A stretch of DNA of 64,000 bases, from the NCBI RefSeq assembly GCF_001953745.1, contig NZ_LWLN01000001.1, positions 3,162,001 through 3,226,000 of the forward strand. Reading direction: 5' to 3'. This stretch comes from Natrinema saccharevitans. Lineage in GTDB: Archaea > Halobacteriota > Halobacteria > Halobacteriales > Natrialbaceae. A model generated the notes under the pieces. The model was not told the origin of the DNA, ran no database searches, and saw only the letters and a program-made list of their open reading frames with translations. Position 1 is the stretch's first letter. Every line of letters starts with the position of its first letter. Below, in pieces: positions 3,659 to 57,956 of this stretch. Position numbers and translations under genes: made by a program.

Positions 3659-3676
3659 ACCGTGACGAGACGCCGT

Positions 3677-4177
3677 TCAGGCGTTCAAACGCCAGATCTC
3701 GAGATTGAGGACCGTCGCGAACGTCACCCACGCGAGATACGGCACCAACAGCGCCGCGGCGCGGCGGTCGACCCGGCGGAAGGCGACGATCGTCCCGGCC
3801 ACGAGCGTCCAGAGGACGACGATGATACCCAGCGCGACCAGCGGGGCCTCGAGCGCGAAGAAAGCGGGCGTCCAGACGACGTTGAACGCCATCTGGGCGA
3901 CGAACGCGCCGAGCGCGAGTCGCCGGCCGTCGGCGTCGCTACGCCAGACGAGCCACAGCGCGACGCCCAGCAGCGTAAAGAGCAGCGTCCAGACGACCGG
4001 GAACGCGATCGTCGGCGGATAGAACCACGGCTTCTCGAGGGCGCGAAACCACGGCGTGTCGGGAGAGGCCACTGCGCTCGGGGCCGCGCCGACGAGGGTG
4101 ACCAGCAGGGCGAAACCGACGGCGGCGAGGACGGACCGACCCGCCGGAAGGCGGCGGGCGATCGCGGGAGATTCCAT
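3677..4177 (-). CDS. tspO: TspO/MBR family tryptophan-rich membrane protein
   Basis: A 166-residue, five-span protein of the TspO (peripheral benzodiazepine receptor/CrtK) family, which binds porphyrins and related ligands in the membrane. Family hallmarks are visible: WFRALEKPWFYPP after the first span, WTLLFTLLGVALWLVW, then QMAFNVVWTPAFF and the last-span motif PYLAWVTFATVLNLEIW. The length is normal. A box TTTATAT at 4201-4207 sits about 27 bases before the ATG, giving a leaderless mRNA. The gene is transcribed divergently from hef, with the two promoters within about 130 bases. Confidence 0.92.
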   Translation of the reverse strand: MESPAIARRLPAGRSVLAAVGFALLVTLVGAAPSAVASPDTPWFRALEKPWFYPPTIAFPVVWTLLFTLLGVALWLVWRSDADGRRLALGAFVAQMAFNVVWTPAFFALEAPLVALGIIVVLWTLVAGTIVAFRRVDRRAAALLVPYLAWVTFATVLNLEIWRLNA

Positions 4178-4198
4178 ACGCCCCGTACGTTCCCGGCG

Positions 4199-4288
4199 GA
4201 TTTATATCGACGAGTGTCAGCGGTCCGGCGCGAGCCGGCCCCCTTCCGTCGAGACCACTTTCACCGCGGTACGGGAACCCTTATTCGC
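4199..4288. promoter_or_regulatory. Divergent tspO/hef promoter region
   Basis: Two TATA-like boxes point in opposite directions: TTTATAT (4201-4207) for tspO on the minus strand and CCTTATTCG (4279-4287) for hef on the plus strand. Each is about 27 bases from its start codon, so both mRNAs should be leaderless. Confidence 0.55.
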
Positions 4289-4309
4289 GGCCGGGATGAA
4301 CGACCGGTA

Positions 4310-6754
4310 ATGGCAGCGACGGACGAGGACGGGGAGCCGGCGTCGATCGACCATCCGCTCCTCGAGCCCGACTTCCTAGAGCGGCGACTCTACCAGCTGA
4401 AACTCGCCGGGACGGCCGCGAACCACCACACGCTGGTCTGTCTCCCCACGGGCCTGGGGAAGACGACGGTGAGCCTGCTGGTGACCGCACGACGGCTCGA
4501 GGAGGTCGGGGGGAAGTCCCTGATGCTCGCGCCGACGAAACCGCTCGTCCAGCAACACGCCGACTTCTACCGCGAAGCGTTACAGATACCCGACGAGGAG
4601 ATCGTCGTCTTCACCGGCGACGTCAGTCCCGACGACCGCGCCGCGACGTGGGAGCAAGCGACGGTCGTCATGGCCACGCCGCAGGTGATCGAGAACGACC
4701 TCGTCGGGAGTCGGATCTCGCTTGCCGACGTGACCCACGTCACCTTCGACGAGTGCCACCGCGCGACCGGCGACTACGCCTACAACTACATCGCCGAGCG
4801 CTACCACGCCGACGCGCGGAATCCGCTCGTGACGGGGATGAGTGCCTCGCCCGGCGGCGACGAGGAGGCCATCCTCGAGGTCTGTGAGAACCTCGGCATC
4901 GACGAGGTCGAGGTGATGACCGAGGAGGACGCCGACGTCGACGAGTTCACCCACGAGACCGAGGTCGAGTGGGAGCGGATCGACCTCCCCGACGACGTCC
5001 TGGAGATCCGGGACGCGTTGAACGAGGTCATCACGGAACGGCTCGAGAAGCTCAAGGAACTCGGTGTGGCGTCCTCGACCCAGCCCGACCAGTCTCAGAA
5101 GGATCTCAATCGCATGCGGGCCGAACTCCAGGAGCTGATCAACAACGACCAGTCGGAGGGGTTCGAGGGGATGTCGATCCACGCGGAGGTGATGAAGCTC
5201 CGGCAGGCGGTCACCTTAGTCGAGACCCAGAGCGTCGAGGCGGTCCGGCGGTACTTCGATCGCCAGCGCAATCAGGCCCGCTCGTCGGGGGCCTCGAAGG
5301 CCAGCCAGCGGCTGGTCTCGGACCCGCGGGTTCGCGAGGCCATGCGCAAGGCCGAGAGCTTCGACGAGATCCACCCGAAGTACCGCAAGACGCGGATGTT
5401 ACTGGCCGAGACGCTCGGACTCGAGGGCGGCGAGCGCGTGATCGTCTTCACCGAATCGCGGGACACGGCCGAGGCGCTGACGGACTTTCTCTCGGACAGT
5501 TTCGACGCCAAGCGGTTCGTCGGACAGGGCGACCGCGAGGGCTCCGACGGGATGACTCAGACCGAACAGCAGGACGTCCTCGACGAGTTCCGCGCCGGGG
5601 AGTTCGAGGTGCTGGTCTCGACATCGGTCGCGGAGGAGGGATTAGACGTCCCCGAGGTCGATCTCGTCCTCTTCTACGAGCCCGTTCCGACCGCGATCCG
5701 GTCGATCCAGCGGAAGGGCCGAACCGGCCGCCAGTCGGAGGGGCGGGTCGTCGTCCTCATGGCCGAGGACACCCGCGACGAGGCCTACTTCTGGATCTCC
5801 CGGCGACGCGAGAAGGAGATGGAGTCGGAGCTGCGCGAGCTGAAGGGGATGGCCGACGAGCTGGCCGAGGAACTCGACGACTCCCAGCAGTCGCTGGCCG
5901 ACTTCGGCGACGGGGAGCGTACGGCGAAAGTGAACGACGACGGCGGTGATCCCGACGCCGTCGGCGATTCTTCCAGCGGAAGCGAGGGGGTCGCGGACCG
6001 GCCCGGGCTGCAGGAGTTCGCCGCCGACGCGGCCGACTCGAGCGACGACGATGACCCGGCCGACGACGAGGTCGAGACCCACGAGCCCCACGCCGAGGGC
6101 GAGGCCGTCGCGGTCGTCGCCGACCAGCGCGAGATGGACGCCAACATCGCGCGGGACCTCTCGAGACGCGAGGAGGTCGAGGTCCGCCTCGAGACGCTCG
6201 ACGTTGGCGACTACGTCCTGTCGGATCGCGTCGTCGTCGAGCGCAAGTCGGTCGCGGACTTCGTCGACTCGCTGGTCGGCGGTGACCGGTCGGTCTTCGA
6301 GCAGGTCGGGGCGATGGCGCGTCACTACTCCCGGCCGATCGTGATCGTCGAGGGCGAGGGGCTGTACGAACAGCGCAACGTCAACCCCAACGCCATCCGG
6401 GGCGCGCTCTCGAGTCTGGCCGTCGACTTCGGCGCGAGCGTGTTGCGGACCGGCGGCGAGGACGAGACGACAGAACTGCTCGCCGTGATCGCCGGCCGCG
6501 AACAGGACGTATCGGACCGGGAGGTGTCGGTCCACGGCGAGAAGCAGTCCAAGACGCTGTCCGAACAGCAGGAGTACGTCGTCGCCTCGATCGCCGAGAT
6601 CGGCCCCGTCACGGCCCGGTCGCTACTCGAGGAGTTCGGGACCGTCGAGGGCGTGATGATCGCGACCGAAGACGAGTTACAGGCCGCCGACGGCGTCGGG
6701 CAGGTGACCGCCGAGCGGATCCGGGAGGTCGTCGGGAACGACTACGCGGGGTAG
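4310..6754 (+). CDS. hef: Hef: fork-DNA helicase/nuclease (FANCM/XPF family)
   Basis: An 814-residue fusion of an SF2 helicase and an XPF-type endonuclease that processes stalled replication forks. Helicase motifs: Walker A PTGLGKTT (46-53), DECH (147-150), SVAEEGLDVPEVD and QRKGRTGR (about 440-480). The nuclease half has the DQRE (605-608), GDY (633-635) and ERK (644-646) residues of the XPF metal site, so both activities look intact. Two helix-hairpin-helix motifs end the protein. Between the halves is an acidic linker starting with a PIP-box-like QQSLADF (526-532). ATG 4310 is preferred over the much longer upstream open frame because that extension is low-complexity and crosses the tspO promoter. 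Confidence 0.95.
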   Translation: MAATDEDGEPASIDHPLLEPDFLERRLYQLKLAGTAANHHTLVCLPTGLGKTTVSLLVTARRLEEVGGKSLMLAPTKPLVQQHADFYREALQIPDEEIVVFTGDVSPDDRAATWEQATVVMATPQVIENDLVGSRISLADVTHVTFDECHRATGDYAYNYIAERYHADARNPLVTGMSASPGGDEEAILEVCENLGIDEVEVMTEEDADVDEFTHETEVEWERIDLPDDVLEIRDALNEVITERLEKLKELGVASSTQPDQSQKDLNRMRAELQELINNDQSEGFEGMSIHAEVMKLRQAVTLVETQSVEAVRRYFDRQRNQARSSGASKASQRLVSDPRVREAMRKAESFDEIHPKYRKTRMLLAETLGLEGGERVIVFTESRDTAEALTDFLSDSFDAKRFVGQGDREGSDGMTQTEQQDVLDEFRAGEFEVLVSTSVAEEGLDVPEVDLVLFYEPVPTAIRSIQRKGRTGRQSEGRVVVLMAEDTRDEAYFWISRRREKEMESELRELKGMADELAEELDDSQQSLADFGDGERTAKVNDDGGDPDAVGDSSSGSEGVADRPGLQEFAADAADSSDDDDPADDEVETHEPHAEGEAVAVVADQREMDANIARDLSRREEVEVRLETLDVGDYVLSDRVVVERKSVADFVDSLVGGDRSVFEQVGAMARHYSRPIVIVEGEGLYEQRNVNPNAIRGALSSLAVDFGASVLRTGGEDETTELLAVIAGREQDVSDREVSVHGEKQSKTLSEQQEYVVASIAEIGPVTARSLLEEFGTVEGVMIATEDELQAADGVGQVTAERIREVVGNDYAG

Positions 6755-19049: not shown

Positions 19050-19074
19050 CTGACCCCTTCGTTTCAACTGGAGA
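19050..19074 (-). promoter_or_regulatory. ORB-like element between lipoprotein gene and tRNA-Gln
   Basis: The plus strand reads CTGACCCCTTCGTTTCAACT then GGAGA; on the minus strand this is TCTCCAGTTGAAACGAAGGG then GTCAG. It keeps the haloarchaeal origin recognition box core (TCCA..TGAAACGAAGGGG) found in the origin at 51405 and 51737. It is about 32 kb from oriC1 and alone. It lies upstream of the lipoprotein TATA box and downstream of tRNA-Gln. Function unknown. Confidence 0.65.
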
Positions 19075-48686: not shown

Positions 48687-48941
48687 GTTCGAGGGGTCGT
48701 AGCCGCGTCGTTTAAATCCATCTTTCTCCGTCCGGAGCATCCCTCGAGTGGCCACAGTGGACTCGACGGTCGTGTGAAGGCAGTTCGGCGCTCGGTCTTC
48801 GAGTCGCCGGCAGTACAACCTGTTGGAGAGCCGGATCGTGACCATCGTTTCCAATGGAGAGGGAATGACTGTGTGAACGTGAATCGAAGGTGGCTGCGGG
48901 AGAATTGCAATCGAAACGGAGGGGTGTGCCGGAGACCTGCG

Positions 48942-51404: not shown

Positions 51405-51431
51405 CCCCCCACCCCTTCGTTTCGAGTGGAG
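51405..51431 (-). promoter_or_regulatory. Origin recognition box (ORB), left
   Basis: Minus strand: CTCCACTCGAAACGAAGGGG followed by TGGGGGG. Core TCCA-CT-CGAAACGAAGGGG plus the halophile G-string. It binds the Orc1/Cdc6 initiator. It faces away from the A+T-rich element. Confidence 0.88.
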
Positions 51432-51540: not shown

Positions 51541-51705
51541 CGGTTCTAGTAACTCGAATAGAGATCTAGTAATTAGAGGACGGACAAGCTACTAATCTAG
51601 CAGGTACTAGCAATACTAAATAACTCCCTAGTAAAGTATTGTCGTCTGCTAGTTCTGCGGATACTGTTTCTGATCTGTATAAATAAAACTTCCCTCTTAA
51701 AATGA
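51541..51705. other. A+T-rich duplex unwinding element with phased CTAG sites
   Basis: The A+T-richest stretch of the origin, flanked by the inverted ORBs. It contains six CTAG tetranucleotides at 51546, 51566, 51597, 51607, 51628 and 51649, several in the longer form CTAGTAA or TACTAG. Its right end, TATAAATAAAACTTCCCTCTT, is followed directly by the C-tract. The likely site of strand opening. Confidence 0.75.
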
Positions 51706-51736
51706 CCCCTCCCCCCCCCCACCCCCTCTTCGCTCC

Positions 51737-51769
51737 GTTCCACCCGAAACGAAGGGGTGGGGGGGGGAG
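51737..51769 (+). promoter_or_regulatory. Origin recognition box (ORB), right, with long G-string
   Basis: GTTCCACCCGAAACGAAGGG followed by GTGGGGGGGGGAG. Core plus the longest G-string in the window. With the C-run at 51706-51728 (CCCCTCCCCCCCCCCCACCC) it forms a long G/C-tract inverted repeat. Confidence 0.9.
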
Positions 51770-51865
51770 TCCGGCACGTCTGATGTTCCCGTGACTCACT
51801 TGATTCCTGTTCCACTTTCCCATCCGTTTCGACTCTACCTCTCCCCGCCTCGCCCCTCTCTTCCC

Positions 51866-51906
51866 ACCCCACCCCACCTCACCCCACCCCACCCCACCCC
51901 ACCACA
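51866..51906 (-). repeat. ACCCC/GGGGT tandem tract in oriC1
   Basis: Seven or more ACCCC units with one ACCTC variant on the plus strand, i.e. repeated TGGGG on the minus strand. Four or more G4 runs with one-base spacers could form a G-quadruplex. It lies about 100 bases right of the strong right ORB. Confidence 0.8.
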
Positions 51907-52405: not shown

Positions 52406-52431
52406 TACTCCACCCGAAATAAGGGGGTTCG
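52406..52431 (+). promoter_or_regulatory. ORB-like site next to the orc1 start
   Basis: TACTCCACCCGAAATAAGGG then GGTTCG, ending 10 bases before the orc1 ATG. It matches the right ORB at TCCACCCGAAA..AAGGGG. Suggests that Orc1 can bind at its own gene, for autoregulation or as a third origin site. Confidence 0.65.
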
Positions 52432-52441
52432 TGTACGACCG

Positions 52442-54196
52442 ATGTCAGACGACGACTCAGAGATCGCGGGTTCGGACGAGGTCGAGGTCGACGGAGCGAA
52501 CGGGTTCTCGAGGGATTTCGAGAACGCGGATCTCGGCGACGAGGAGTCGAATCAGGGCCTATTCGACGACCTGTTGAGCGGCGAACCGATCTTCGAGAAC
52601 AAGGAGGTCCTGCGACCGTCCTATACCCCACACGAACTCCCCCACCGGAGCGATCAGATCAACAAGATGGCGACGATTCTGGTCGCCGCGCTCCGCGGGG
52701 AGACCCCCTCGAACATCCTCATCTACGGGAAGACCGGGACCGGCAAAACCGCGAGCGCGAAGTTCGTCAGCAAGGAACTCGAGAGTACGTCCCAGAAATA
52801 TTCGGTCCCCTGTGACGTCGAGTACATCAACTGCGAGGTTACCGATACCCAGTATCGGGTCCTCGCACAGCTCGCGAACAAGTTTATCGAGAAGAACGAG
52901 ACCCGGATCGACGAGCGAATCGACGACCTCCGATCCCTGCTGGACGATCTCGAGGCGTACGACCGCGCCGCCGACGGCTCGAGCGACGAGCCGGCAGATG
53001 AGACGGCGTCGGACCCGTTCGATTTCGTCTCCGAGGACGAGATCGACGGCGACACCGAAACTTCGACTGGAACTGATATCGGACCGCAGTCCGGCGGTTC
53101 TCCACTCGAAACAGGGGGGTCAGCCGACCGGAGCGATTCGCCGTCCGAAACCGAACCCGCGGCCCTCGAGAACGCTGCCGACGGGTCCGAGGCGTCCGGG
53201 GACGGTGCCGCTGATCCGACACCCGATCACCCGCTCGCATCGACGCCGTTCGGCGGGCGAGACGAGATCGAAGACCGGATCGCGGAGCTACGAGACGACA
53301 AGGACTCCTTCGAGGAGGTGCCGATGACCGGCTGGCCGACCGACCGGGTCTACAGCGTCTTTTTCGACGCCGTCGACTACGACGAGCGGGTCGTCGTCAT
53401 CATGTTGGACGAGATCGACAAACTCGTCGAGAAAAGCGGCGACGACACGCTCTACAATCTCTCGCGGATGAACTCCGAACTCGAGAACTCCCGTGTTTCG
53501 ATCATCGGTATCTCGAACGACCTGAAGTTCACCGACTTCCTCGATCCCCGCGTGAAGTCCTCGTTGGGGGAAGAGGAGATCGTCTTCCCGCCCTACGACG
53601 CCAACCAGCTTCGAGACATTCTCGAACATCGCTCCGAGGTCGCGTTCAAGGGGGGCGCGCTCTCGGGTGACGTGATCCCGCTGTGTGCGGCCTTCGCCGC
53701 GCAGGAACACGGGGACGCACGGCGCGCGCTGGATCTGCTGCGGACCGCCGGCGAACTCGCCGAGCGTTCCCAGTCGGAGACGATCGTCGAGGAACACGTC
53801 CGACAGGCCCAGGACAAGATCGAACTCGATCGCGTGGTCGAGGTCGTCCGCACTCTGCCGACGCAGTCGAAACTCGTCCTCTTCGCGATCATCCTGCTCG
53901 AGAAAAACGGCGTCCACAGCATCAACACGGGCGAGGTGTTCAACATCTACAAGCGCCTCTGCGAGGAGATCGACGCCGACGTGCTGACCCAGCGTCGGGT
54001 GACCGACCTCATCAGCGAACTCGACATGCTCGGAATCGTCAACGCCGTCGTCGTCTCCAAGGGCCGGTACGGCCGGACCAAAGAGATCAGCCTCTCGGTC
54101 CCGCTCGAGGAGACGGAGGCCGTCCTCCTCTCCGATTCGCGGCTTTCCGATATCGACGACGTTCAGCCGTTCGTACAGGCCCGGTTCGAGAACTGA
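52442..54196 (+). CDS. orc1: Orc1/Cdc6 replication initiator
   Basis: A 584-residue AAA+ initiator that binds ORBs at oriC1 and recruits MCM. Walker A YGKTGTGKTASAKF (Gly96-Thr103), Walker B MLDEIDKLVE (322-326), sensor 1 GISNDLKF, sensor 2 GDARRALDLLRTAG, and a C-terminal winged helix (YKRLCEEI, LTQRRVTDLISELDMLGIV). An acidic low-complexity insert at about 175-270 between Walker A and B contains the ORB-like pair at 53061-53123. Length is greater than typical Cdc6 because of this insert and a 45-residue acidic N-terminus. ATG 52442 is preferred over the upstream in-frame TTG at 52316. Confidence 0.97.
   Translation: MSDDDSEIAGSDEVEVDGANGFSRDFENADLGDEESNQGLFDDLLSGEPIFENKEVLRPSYTPHELPHRSDQINKMATILVAALRGETPSNILIYGKTGTGKTASAKFVSKELESTSQKYSVPCDVEYINCEVTDTQYRVLAQLANKFIEKNETRIDERIDDLRSLLDDLEAYDRAADGSSDEPADETASDPFDFVSEDEIDGDTETSTGTDIGPQSGGSPLETGGSADRSDSPSETEPAALENAADGSEASGDGAADPTPDHPLASTPFGGRDEIEDRIAELRDDKDSFEEVPMTGWPTDRVYSVFFDAVDYDERVVVIMLDEIDKLVEKSGDDTLYNLSRMNSELENSRVSIIGISNDLKFTDFLDPRVKSSLGEEEIVFPPYDANQLRDILEHRSEVAFKGGALSGDVIPLCAAFAAQEHGDARRALDLLRTAGELAERSQSETIVEEHVRQAQDKIELDRVVEVVRTLPTQSKLVLFAIILLEKNGVHSINTGEVFNIYKRLCEEIDADVLTQRRVTDLISELDMLGIVNAVVVSKGRYGRTKEISLSVPLEETEAVLLSDSRLSDIDDVQPFVQARFEN
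53061..53123. repeat. ORB-like inverted pair inside the orc1 linker
   Basis: Left half CTTCGACTGGAACTGA (53061-53076), right half TTCTCCACTCGAAACAGGGG then GGTCAG (53098-53123). The right half keeps the full ORB core with G-run; the left half lacks the C-run. Encodes TSTGTD and SPLETGGSADRS of the acidic insert. Confidence 0.6.
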
Positions 54197-54316: not shown

Positions 54317-55300
54317 TCAGGACCGGTAGCGGCCGGCGGCGAGAACCGCACCGCCGGCGGCGAGCCCGACGATACCGGCTGTGCCGGCGAGGCCCCCACC
54401 GACACCTGGCCCCGGCGCGCCGGGACCGGCAGCCGACGCGGTCGTCACGGGAGCGGCTGGGCCCTGTAGCGGCGCGCCCGCGGGCGAGGCGGGAGCGATC
54501 ATCCCACCCAGGAGGCTGTCGACGGTCAGTCGAACGTGGCCGAGCCACGGGATCCGGTACATGGCCTTGCCGGTCACCCACTCGGGTTTGACGACGGTCG
54601 TTCTGGCGCCCGATCCCGGCAATTGATCGTAGCTTGGGTTGTTGTCGCCTTTCGTAATGAATCCGGCGTGGGGGGCGGGACAGGTAACGACTTCCTCACA
54701 GCTCGCGTCGCCGACGAACTCCTCGCTGGCCTGGGTTTCGACCCATCGCTCGTCCTTCTCGACCCAGAAGTGGGCGCGATGGATTATCGGCGTCGCTCTC
54801 GTCTCGCCGTTCGGTCGGAAGACGATCACGTCGCCGGGGTTCCCGAACTCCGAGTAGCCGCTCTCCTCACCGCGTTGCATCGTGACGATGCCGGTGTCGC
54901 CGACGGCCCCGTCACCGGTGAACCGTCCGTCATCGACGATGAAGATCAGGTCGCCCCTGTGCATGTTCGGCTCCATGCTCGGGCTCTCGACGGCGACCAG
55001 CGGCGGCCAGAGTCCGCTGACCGCGAACAGCAGGAGGCCGACGACGGCGACGAGCGCGACGCTGCTCGCGACGTCCCGAACCAACACGACGTTCTCGTCG
55101 TCGGTCTCGAGGAACCAGCGGACGACGCCGTCGTCCTCGATACTGGCGCCGTCGTCGGTATCGGCACGTCCGCGGTCGCCCCGCCGCTGCGGGCCAGCGG
55201 CGTCGCCGTCCGGCGGGTCACGGTCGTGGTTTGTCGCCAACCGCTCGCGATCGCCGTCGCCGGAATCGCCGGGGTGATCCCCGGAATCAGAACCGCTCAT
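54317..55300 (-). CDS. Type I signal peptidase (Sec11-like)
   Basis: A 327-residue S26 peptidase that removes Sec signal peptides. A disordered acidic N-terminus (1-60) leads to a span (about 78-98) and the catalytic domain: SPSMEPNMHRGDLIF (nucleophile Ser108), HRAHFW (His174; archaeal Ser-His type without the bacterial Lys) and FITKGDNNPSYDQ near 220-235. A Gly/Ala/Pro-rich tail and a final hydrophobic segment end the protein. It has a 51%-class look-alike immediately upstream on the same strand. Confidence 0.93.
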   Translation of the reverse strand: MSGSDSGDHPGDSGDGDRERLATNHDRDPPDGDAAGPQRRGDRGRADTDDGASIEDDGVVRWFLETDDENVVLVRDVASSVALVAVVGLLLFAVSGLWPPLVAVESPSMEPNMHRGDLIFIVDDGRFTGDGAVGDTGIVTMQRGEESGYSEFGNPGDVIVFRPNGETRATPIIHRAHFWVEKDERWVETQASEEFVGDASCEEVVTCPAPHAGFITKGDNNPSYDQLPGSGARTTVVKPEWVTGKAMYRIPWLGHVRLTVDSLLGGMIAPASPAGAPLQGPAAPVTTASAAGPGAPGPGVGGGLAGTAGIVGLAAGGAVLAAGRYRS

Positions 55301-55388
55301 CGTGCCCCGTTTTGCCGGGACCGCCAATCAACTTTCTGTTCGTCCCGACCGCCACGGGCCGCGACGGATCGCGGTCGCCCGCGTGGTC

Positions 55389-56264
55389 CTATGGATCGCG
55401 GCCGGCGGCGGCCGTGACGAACAGCGCGAGCGCGACCAGTCCCGCGGCGACCGCGACCGCAGCCGGGCCAACGCCCAGCAGCGAGCGGACCGAATCGACC
55501 GCCAGCCTGATCTCGCCGAGCCACGGGAGCCGAACGATCGCTTTGCTCCGGACCCACTCGGGTTTGACGACGGTCGTGTCGGCGCCCGACCGCGGTAGCT
55601 GGTCGTACGCGGGGTTGGCGTCGCCTTTCGTGACGAACCCGTCGTGGGGGGCCGGACACGACGGAATCTCGGTGCAGGTCGCGCCGTTGACGAACGCCGG
55701 GTCGGCCTTCGTCTCGACCCAGCGTTCGCCCTTCTCGACCCGAAACGCGACCCGGTGGATCGTCGGTGTCTGGCGCGGGTCGCCGTTCGGTCTGAAAACG
55801 ACGACGTCGCCCGCGTCGCCGAGCGTCTCGTGGCCAGTCTCCAGTCCGCGCTCGCGCGTGACGATACCGGTTCCGCCGACGGCACCGTCGCCGGCGAATC
55901 TCCCCTCGTCGACGACGATCACGAGATCTCCCCGTTCGAGGTGGGGCTCCATGCTGCCGCTCTCGACGGCGACCAGCGGCGGCCAGGTGCCGGCGACGGC
56001 GAACAACAGGAGGCCGACGACGGCGACGATCGCGAGGCTCGTCGCGACGTCCCGGCCCACGGCCGCCGCTCGGTCGTCGGCCTCGAGGAACCAGCGGACG
56101 ATCCCGTCGTCGATCGTGACTCCTTCGCCCGGTCGGGGTCGAGACGCGAGCCGGTCGTCGGTCCCGTCCCGGTCGGCCGCGGAATCGGGTCCGTCGGCGG
56201 TCGGCGGATCGTCGGGTGGCCCCGCTCGGTCGCGGTCGCTCTCGCCGGCGTCGGGCCCGTCCAT
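55389..56264 (-). CDS. Type I signal peptidase, second tandem copy
   Basis: A 291-residue homologue of the next gene: acidic N-terminus to about 55, span at about 76-95, SGSMEPHLERGDLVIVVDEGRF (Ser104), IHRVAF (His170) and FVTKGDANPAYDQLPRSG. It shares blocks such as KPEWV, WLG and DDG.VRWFLE with its neighbour, so the two come from a gene duplication. Both carry all catalytic residues. The gap between them is 88 bases. Confidence 0.93.
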   Translation of the reverse strand: MDGPDAGESDRDRAGPPDDPPTADGPDSAADRDGTDDRLASRPRPGEGVTIDDGIVRWFLEADDRAAAVGRDVATSLAIVAVVGLLLFAVAGTWPPLVAVESGSMEPHLERGDLVIVVDEGRFAGDGAVGGTGIVTRERGLETGHETLGDAGDVVVFRPNGDPRQTPTIHRVAFRVEKGERWVETKADPAFVNGATCTEIPSCPAPHDGFVTKGDANPAYDQLPRSGADTTVVKPEWVRSKAIVRLPWLGEIRLAVDSVRSLLGVGPAAVAVAAGLVALALFVTAAAGRDP

Positions 56265-56396: not shown

Positions 56397-57956
56397 GTGC
56401 CACTCGAGGCCCCCGCGCGGATCGTCGGCGAACTCACGAGCCGCGGCTACAACGCCGAACGCGAGGCCGTGACGCGGCTCGCCGGGGCCTCTGATCCCGG
56501 TGCGGCCCTCGAGCGCGTCCTCGAGGCGGTCCCCGAGGACGCCTTAGTCGTCCGGACCGAACACGTCGAGACGGCGCTCTCGGCGGACGCCGCCGATGCC
56601 GCTCGCGCCGAGCCGGCCGCCGTTCTCGACGGCGAACCGACCCCCTCCGTTTCGACTGGAACTGACCCGACCCCGGGCGATGATACCTCCGGGGCCGCTC
56701 CAGTTGAAATGGGGGGGTCGTCGCCCGCCGATCGCTCCGTCGATCCCGCGAGCCGCTCCCTCGAGATCGTCGGTGACATGACCGGCCAGAGTACCGGGAC
56801 CGGCGAGTACGAGGACTTCGTCTCGGTCTTTCGCGATCGACTCGACCGGCTGGGCGGTAAACTCAAGGGACGGGTCAACCACCGGCCGGCGACCGCCATT
56901 CAGGACATGCCCGGCGGCAGCGAGGTCGCGATGGTCGGACTGGTCAACGACATCCGATCGACCGCCAGCGGCCACTGGTTGATCGAACTCGAGGACGCGA
57001 CCGGAACTTTCCCGTGGCTGGTGATGAAAGACCGGGAGTACGTCGACCTGGTCGACGAACTGCTCTGTGACGAGGTGCTGGCGATGGAGGGGTCCCTGGC
57101 GGACGACTCGGGGATCGCCTTCGTCGACTCGCTGCACTTCCCCGACATCCCCCGGACCCACGAGCCGTCGACGGCGGATCGCCACGTGCAGGCGGCGCTG
57201 ATCAGCGACGTCCACGTCGGTAGTCAGGAGTTCATGGCCGACGCCTGGAACGCCTTCGCGGACTGGCTCCACACCGCGGAGGCGGAACGCGTCGAGTACC
57301 TGCTGCTGGCCGGTGACATGGTCGAGGGCGTCGGCGTCTACCCCGACCAGGACGAGGAACTCGACATCGTCGACATCTACGAGCAGTACGAGGCCTTCAG
57401 CGAGTACTTAAAGAAGATCCCCGGGGACATCGAGATCGTCATGATCCCGGGCAACCACGACGCGGTTCGGCTCGCGGAGCCACAGCCCGGCTTCGACGAG
57501 GAACTGCGCGAGATCATGTCCGCCCACGATCCCCGGATCGTGAGCAACCCCTCGACGGTGACCCTCGAGGGCGTCTCAGTCCTGATGTACCACGGCGTCA
57601 GCTTGGACGAGGTCATCGCGGAACTCCCGGAGGAAAAGGCCAGTTACGACGACCCTCACAAGGCGATGTACCACCTCCTCAAGAAGCGCCACGTCGCGCC
57701 GCAGTTCGGGGGTCACACGCGGCTCGCGCCCGAGGAGGAGGACTACCTCGTCATCGAGGAGGTGCCCGACATCTTCCACACCGGCCACGTCCACAAGCTC
57801 GGCTTCGGCAAGTACCACGACGTGCTGGCGATCAACTCCGGCTGCTGGCAGGCCCAGACGGACTTCCAGAAGAGCGTCAACATCGATCCCGATGCCGGCT
57901 TCGCGCCGATCGTCGATCTAGACACGCTCGACGTAACTGTCCAGAAGTTTAGTTAG
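56397..57956 (+). CDS. dp1: DNA polymerase D small subunit DP1
   Basis: A 519-residue PolD exonuclease subunit. N-terminal helical domain (PLEAPARIVGELTSRGYN), a disordered linker at about 70-135, an OB-fold (about 170-260), and an Mre11-like phosphodiesterase: DVHVGS (271-276), GDMVEG (306-311), GNHD (352-355), GGHTRL and GHVH near 465. All 3'-5' exonuclease metal ligands are present. GTG 56397 is chosen for the family-typical MPLEAPARIV start and a CTATCCTTTTT box about 26-34 bases upstream. The linker contains the ORB-like pair at 56639-56720. Confidence 0.94.
   Translation: MPLEAPARIVGELTSRGYNAEREAVTRLAGASDPGAALERVLEAVPEDALVVRTEHVETALSADAADAARAEPAAVLDGEPTPSVSTGTDPTPGDDTSGAAPVEMGGSSPADRSVDPASRSLEIVGDMTGQSTGTGEYEDFVSVFRDRLDRLGGKLKGRVNHRPATAIQDMPGGSEVAMVGLVNDIRSTASGHWLIELEDATGTFPWLVMKDREYVDLVDELLCDEVLAMEGSLADDSGIAFVDSLHFPDIPRTHEPSTADRHVQAALISDVHVGSQEFMADAWNAFADWLHTAEAERVEYLLLAGDMVEGVGVYPDQDEELDIVDIYEQYEAFSEYLKKIPGDIEIVMIPGNHDAVRLAEPQPGFDEELREIMSAHDPRIVSNPSTVTLEGVSVLMYHGVSLDEVIAELPEEKASYDDPHKAMYHLLKKRHVAPQFGGHTRLAPEEEDYLVIEEVPDIFHTGHVHKLGFGKYHDVLAINSGCWQAQTDFQKSVNIDPDAGFAPIVDLDTLDVTVQKFS
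56639..56720. repeat. ORB-like inverted pair inside the dp1 linker
   Basis: Left half GACCCCCTCCGTTTCGACTG then GAACTGAC (56639-56666), right half GCTCCAGTTGAAATGGGGGG then GTCG (56697-56720). The halves are inverted copies over about 23 bases. Both match the ORB core with C/G-run. Encodes PSVSTGTD and APVEMGGSS of the linker, very like the orc1 insert. Confidence 0.65.

Follow-up and report, generated by a model that had tools for sequence, protein, structure and literature searches.

A conserved inverted pair of predicted Orc1-binding sites within the DP1 gene of haloarchaea belongs to a set of ORBs clustered around oriC

Introduction

In Haloarcula hispanica, an ORB-rich region downstream of cdc6E, oriC2D, restrains the origin oriC2, likely by titration (PMC3936714); it is a dense intergenic cluster for Cdc6E, with 11 ORBs in 722 bp. 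The DnaA boxes of Escherichia coli, on average 902 per genome, are over-represented close to oriC (PMC12371093), and this enrichment, together with datA and DARS, has been proposed to titrate the initiator. At haloarchaeal oriC1 itself, the two arms of an inverted ORB pair flank a long AT-rich region and lie ~300–340 bp apart (start to start) in Natrinema and related loci, and less in some other families. A survey of haloarchaeal ORBs took in only the intergenic regions that adjoin orc/cdc6 genes (PMC3528665), so that intragenic sites were missed by design. In the open literature that we searched, we found no previous description of ORBs inside genes, including the gene for DP1, the small subunit of polymerase D (PolD).

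Here we analyze a stretch of 64,000 nucleotides of Natrinema saccharevitans (hereafter, the window), which contains oriC, orc1, and the DP1 gene, and compare it with other haloarchaeal genomes. The ORBs found here beyond oriC, like those of oriC2D, lie near but outside the origin proper, whereas they match the oriC1 type, occur as singles or pairs over ~100–165 kb, and are in several cases intragenic. The likeness to E. coli extends to the enrichment of initiator sites near the origin, but the initiator and the domain of life are different, and hundreds of boxes there compare with about ten strong sites here. One conserved ORB pair sits inside the DP1 gene, and thus within a gene for part of a polymerase reported to be essential in Halobacterium and Haloferax (PMC7776575).

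ORBs are clustered around oriC

An exact pattern tailored to the 2 arms in DP1 matched those arms only, and we used instead TTCCANNNGAAACGNNGGGG, which we take to be the oriC-type haloarchaeal ORB consensus and which agrees with both oriC boxes of the window. When up to 3 mismatches are allowed, the window contains 11 sites, whereas shuffles give 2.5 on average and none of 100 reached 11. A genome-wide search with this consensus, in line with the one suggested in a preliminary description of this DNA, returned matches beyond chance: 16 sites at ≤2 mismatches in the whole 3.98-Mb Natrinema genome, compared with 2 for the reversed pattern. Only 2 ORBs genome-wide are perfect, namely the left arm in DP1 and the right box of oriC, and all 7 with 0 or 1 mismatch are located between C1:3114755 and 3218661, a 104-kb region around oriC. 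Each of 29 genomes of the genus carries 5–10 ORBs at ≤1 mismatch, a level that, with a consensus of our own choice, leaves out weaker functional sites; the reversed control gave 2 matches in total. In the 9 Natrinema genomes with oriC on a contig of >3 Mb, 73 of 74 such ORBs fall within 165 kb of oriC. The clustering persists in 14 genomes picked across the family and the order, being looser where the region is rearranged, and a match with 0 mismatches was found in 76 of 89 genomes of the order (reversed control, 0/89). Chance matches are rejected by the clustering together with the reversed-pattern and shuffle controls. Initiator-type sites are thus present outside the origin and clustered close by, as expected of an initiator-titrating locus.

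The oriC ORBs of the window are located at 51412..51431 (left, minus strand, 1 mismatch) and 51738..51757 (right, plus strand, 0 mismatches). Long C-rich and G-rich tracts are found beside the right ORB, at 51700–51900. An intergenic ORB with 1 mismatch lies past the end of the oapC gene (48905..48924, plus strand) and has a candidate partner with 3 mismatches at 48840–48859 on the minus strand. Farther out, ~32 kb from oriC, a minus-strand intergenic ORB with 1 mismatch (19054..19073) has a counterpart in the same neighborhood of other Natrinema. Another outlying ORB (5971..5990, plus strand, 1 mismatch) is a single site within a Hef-like helicase-nuclease gene (ORF 3662–6754), in the interdomain linker from Helicase_C to ERCC4; a perfect ORB occupies this position in 2 other Natrinema. 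Other members of the set lie between genes, and several of these keep their neighborhood from genome to genome within the genus.

A further conserved outlying ORB is represented by G000:C1:3114755 and its counterparts (L162, L166, L173, and L180), ~100–160 kb from oriC. This type of site often comprises 2 same-strand ORBs ~92–99 bp apart, and in some genomes a gene starting MSESRAFCPRCGD is nearby.

An inverted ORB pair in the DP1 linker

The DP1 gene (56397..57956, plus strand) is located 2.2 kb downstream of orc1. The ORB-like pair that the preliminary description had placed in its linker is indeed there, with 0 mismatches in the left arm (56642..56661, minus strand, TTCCAGTCGAAACGGAGGGG), where the coding strand reads P-S-V-S-T-G, and 2 in the right arm (56698..56717, plus strand, CTCCAGTTGAAATGGGGGGG), which encodes P-V-E-M-G-G. 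The arms are inverted with G-strings pointing outward, 56 bp from start to start, and are separated by a 36-bp spacer (56662..56697) that is poorly conserved in sequence and near-constant in length. The pair matches oriC1-type ORBs in motif, including the G-string, in inversion, and in outward orientation, whereas its arms, unlike those of oriC1, are 56 bp apart and embedded in GC-rich coding DNA. Both arms fall within residues 65–107 (counted from the codon at 56400), the sole long segment of DP1 with pLDDT <50. The closest relatives of this DP1 are those of N. mahii (97% identity) and N. thermotolerans (96%).

The interval between orc1 and DP1 is occupied by tandem signal-peptidase-like genes (54317–55327 and 55389–56264), an apparent duplication with 72–76% DNA identity at a constant spacing of 976 bp.

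The DP1 pair is conserved across haloarchaea

Within the genus, the pair is present in all 28 loci with a whole linker, at a spacing of 56 bp in 25 and 53 bp in 3, with up to 3 mismatches in some arms. A scan with free spacing of 100 loci from the genus, family, and order detected an outward pair at ≤5 mismatches in 82, spaced by 56 bp in 70 and by 53 bp in 8; these loci are related by descent, so that such counts are not independent. The inward control arrangement never scored below 4 mismatches in the same loci and mostly scored 7–8. The linker flanks occur in 36 and 31 distinct lengths, the left one ranging from 6 to 153 bp. When 74 loci sharing the 56-bp spacing were aligned, conservation was 0.9–1.0 in most of the specified ORB columns and mostly 0.35–0.65 in the spacer. 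A second set of 79 DP1 loci, many from named genomes, which partially overlaps the first, yielded the pair at ≤6 mismatches in 63, of which 54 have the 56-bp spacing and include Haloarcula, Haloferax, Halosimplex, Halobaculum, and Halobacterium species; in some of them the arms are degraded.

One or both arms are lost or degraded in some lineages (L142, L143, L153, and L159), and the pair is therefore not indispensable. It was absent from the phylum outgroups beyond the halophiles that we examined, including Methanocellales, and thus looks specific to Halobacteria. In some genomes, DP1 is 14–194 kb from orc1, and the pair remains in DP1. In G010, G011, and L174, ~158 kb separate the oriC ORB pair from orc1 and DP1, a layout that an inversion with one end between oriC and orc1 would produce; the DP1 ORB pair is retained.

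Selection acts on the DNA of the linkers

For the recoding test, the linker amino acids were kept and synonymous codons were redrawn from the codon usage of the locus itself in 10,000 trials. In 86 of 100 loci, no trial was as good as the observed pair. The DP1 pair of the window has 2 mismatches in total, compared with a recoded mean of 11.3 and a minimum of 6. Among 20 sequences of the genus, the rare codons GTT, ACT, GGA, CCA, and GAA are 100% fixed where the third base coincides with a specified ORB base, although elsewhere in the gene GTT makes up 6.6%, ACT 6.9%, and GGA 12%; codons on the N columns of the ORB vary (TCG, 55%; GTT, 70%). The loss of the motif upon recoding and the rare codons fixed on ORB bases indicate that selection acts on the DNA: the same amino acids in synonymous codons do not yield the motif, and the second refutation named in the preliminary description, the same peptide in relatives encoded without the DNA motif, did not occur. 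For the Hef linker, the corresponding fractions were 0 to 0.0002 of 50,000 trials.

The peptide words STGTD and E-[TM]-GGS, described as common to the DP1 and Orc1 linkers, occur in both proteins; they are shared because the ORB and the reading frame together dictate them. The Hef ORB is read in a different frame from the DP1 and orc1 ORBs (SSGNEG). Judging from the motif, one frame per strand would give small or acidic residues, which a disordered halophilic linker may tolerate, and the remaining frames would put bulky or basic residues into it; that tolerance would explain why linkers carry the sites. Across an archaeal order, a coding sequence is likely to serve as a protein-binding DNA site, with the peptide following the DNA.

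Sites within and upstream of orc1

The orc1 gene (52442..54196, plus strand) encodes an ORC1/Cdc6 initiator of the oriC1 type, a close relative of the crystallized archaeal Orc1/Cdc6 proteins 2qby and 2v1u; its AlphaFold model is poor overall (mean pLDDT 45) and was left out of the argument. The arrangement that had been described as the same as in DP1 is found here in part. An inverted pair is present in the linker, but it is weaker, with 2 mismatches in the right arm (53100..53119, plus strand, encoding P-L-E-T-G-G) and 4 in the degenerate left arm (53053..53072, minus strand), and its spacing is 47 bp instead of 56. Several other genera have kept the left arm better, with 2–3 mismatches. 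The recoding test gave p < 0.001 for this pair in 37 of 90 loci (window, 0/5,000). The 56-, 53-, and 47-bp spacings share no common helical phase, as calculated arithmetically.

An ORB-like site with 3 mismatches (52408..52427, plus strand) starts 34 bp before the orc1 ATG. Elsewhere, this site often has 0–2 mismatches, and in 55 loci it starts at a near-constant distance from an in-frame ATG downstream, 34 bp in 45 of them and 33 bp in the other 10. This interval coincides with the expected BRE/TATA position of a leaderless transcript, so that the site presumably lies in the orc1 promoter, at the distance expected for initiator autoregulation. As in most Natrinema, 52408–52427 has GAAATAAGG in place of the consensus GAAACGNNGG, and the site could also act as a TATA-like element of the promoter.

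Possible functions of the ORB set

The preliminary description had offered 2 explanations, and the one in which selection keeps predicted initiator sites clustered around the origin is supported by the genome-wide clustering, order-wide conservation, rare fixed codons, and recoding test. We consider it probable that the DP1 pair consists of ORBs for the oriC1-type Orc1, maintained as DNA within an origin-centered set that acts on initiator supply. This set comprises about a dozen ORBs over ~100–165 kb, at oriC, the orc1 promoter, the orc1, DP1, and Hef linkers, and intergenic positions. The motif, its pairing, spacing, conservation, and clustering, and the constraint on the DNA are observed; that Orc1 binds the ORBs and that they control initiator supply is inferred, their most likely role being to titrate or regulate Orc1 in the origin region. 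Sites close to the origin would be copied straight after it fires, so that their number would double at once; the doubled sites could then pull Orc1 off the sister origins, making re-initiation less likely, and an ORB over the orc1 promoter would allow orc1 to repress itself. The DP1 pair, the orc1-promoter ORB, and the ring of sites around oriC offer a testable system for the control of re-initiation in archaea, which is poorly understood.

Several observations sit less easily with titration or with an origin-centered set. A fixed 56-bp inverted spacing is not in itself required for titration; the pair is degraded in some lineages; haloarchaea are polyploid, so that a switch based on titration at each origin might not operate in the same way in them; and the pair stays with DP1 at 14–194 kb from orc1, which fits a function of the DP1 gene as well. 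The fixed spacing and the retention of the pair in relocated DP1 genes leave room for a DP1-tied role, and it is a real, if lesser, possibility that the pair is a dedicated, spacing-defined site for an Orc1 complex, rather than a mere titration site, which directly couples the amount of initiator either to the synthesis of polymerase D or to a specific nucleoprotein structure.

More tentatively, the pair may regulate DP1 itself, with 2 Orc1 molecules at 56 bp forming a roadblock or loop that ties polymerase D synthesis to the level of initiator, and the orc1 and Hef sites acting likewise. The fixed spacing and the attachment of the pair to DP1 would be expected in that case, the genes that carry sites within them function in replication or repair, and the orc1 ORB is at promoter distance; however, several members of the set lie between genes without an evident replication gene beside them, and the distance from the pair to the N-terminal domain of DP1 varies with the left flank.

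The inverted layout with outward G-strings, as at oriC, would also suit a second site of initiation assembly, be it an auxiliary origin or an MCM-loading site. This is unlikely, since the DNA around the 36-bp spacer is rich in GC (74% in the 300-bp block that starts at 56400), and no AT-rich unwinding element was found between the ORBs of the DP1 pair. We give slightly less credence still to a parS-like role, in which the clustered sites, read by Orc1 or another protein, would label the surroundings of the origin, as parS sites near oriC do in bacteria, to serve segregation or the organization of the nucleoid: confinement to within ~165 kb of oriC and the conserved outlying positions would suit it, but the motif is that of the initiator and not of a known segregation protein.

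The second explanation in the preliminary description, that linkers of proteins are colonized by a small, mobile palindrome derived from the ORB, is very improbable. Rickettsia palindromic elements are palindromic DNA in coding sequence, mobile and dispersed. The DP1 pair resembles them in its location within coding sequence, and the layout and peptide words common to 2 linkers, along with an ORB in a third (Hef), could be read as signs of such movement. In contrast to those elements, the pair keeps its place throughout the order and belongs to a cluster around the origin. The genomes and loci scanned contain neither many dispersed copies nor filled and empty sites among relatives; the suggested comparison of linkers between sister species found the DP1 site to be orthologous across families rather than present in one sister and absent from the other; the spacing differs between orc1 (47 bp) and DP1 (56 bp); Hef has one site in a different frame; and most outlying sites are intergenic. 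Equally improbable is a functional linker peptide (the DP1 proteins of the genus have PSVSTGT...PVETEG in common) with the ORB match as its by-product, given that synonymous recoding destroys the motif, that rare codons are fixed exactly at ORB bases and free at N columns, and that Hef carries the same DNA motif in another frame.

A near-ORB with an altered G-string, TTCCANANGAAACGCGGGCG, recurs in several Natrinema, at G001:C1:776383, G004:C47:62606, G014:C10:25006, and G018:C1:1407767, and is possibly a conserved coding coincidence. In G018 it is distant from oriC; in G001, G004, and G014 it lies on contigs other than that of oriC.
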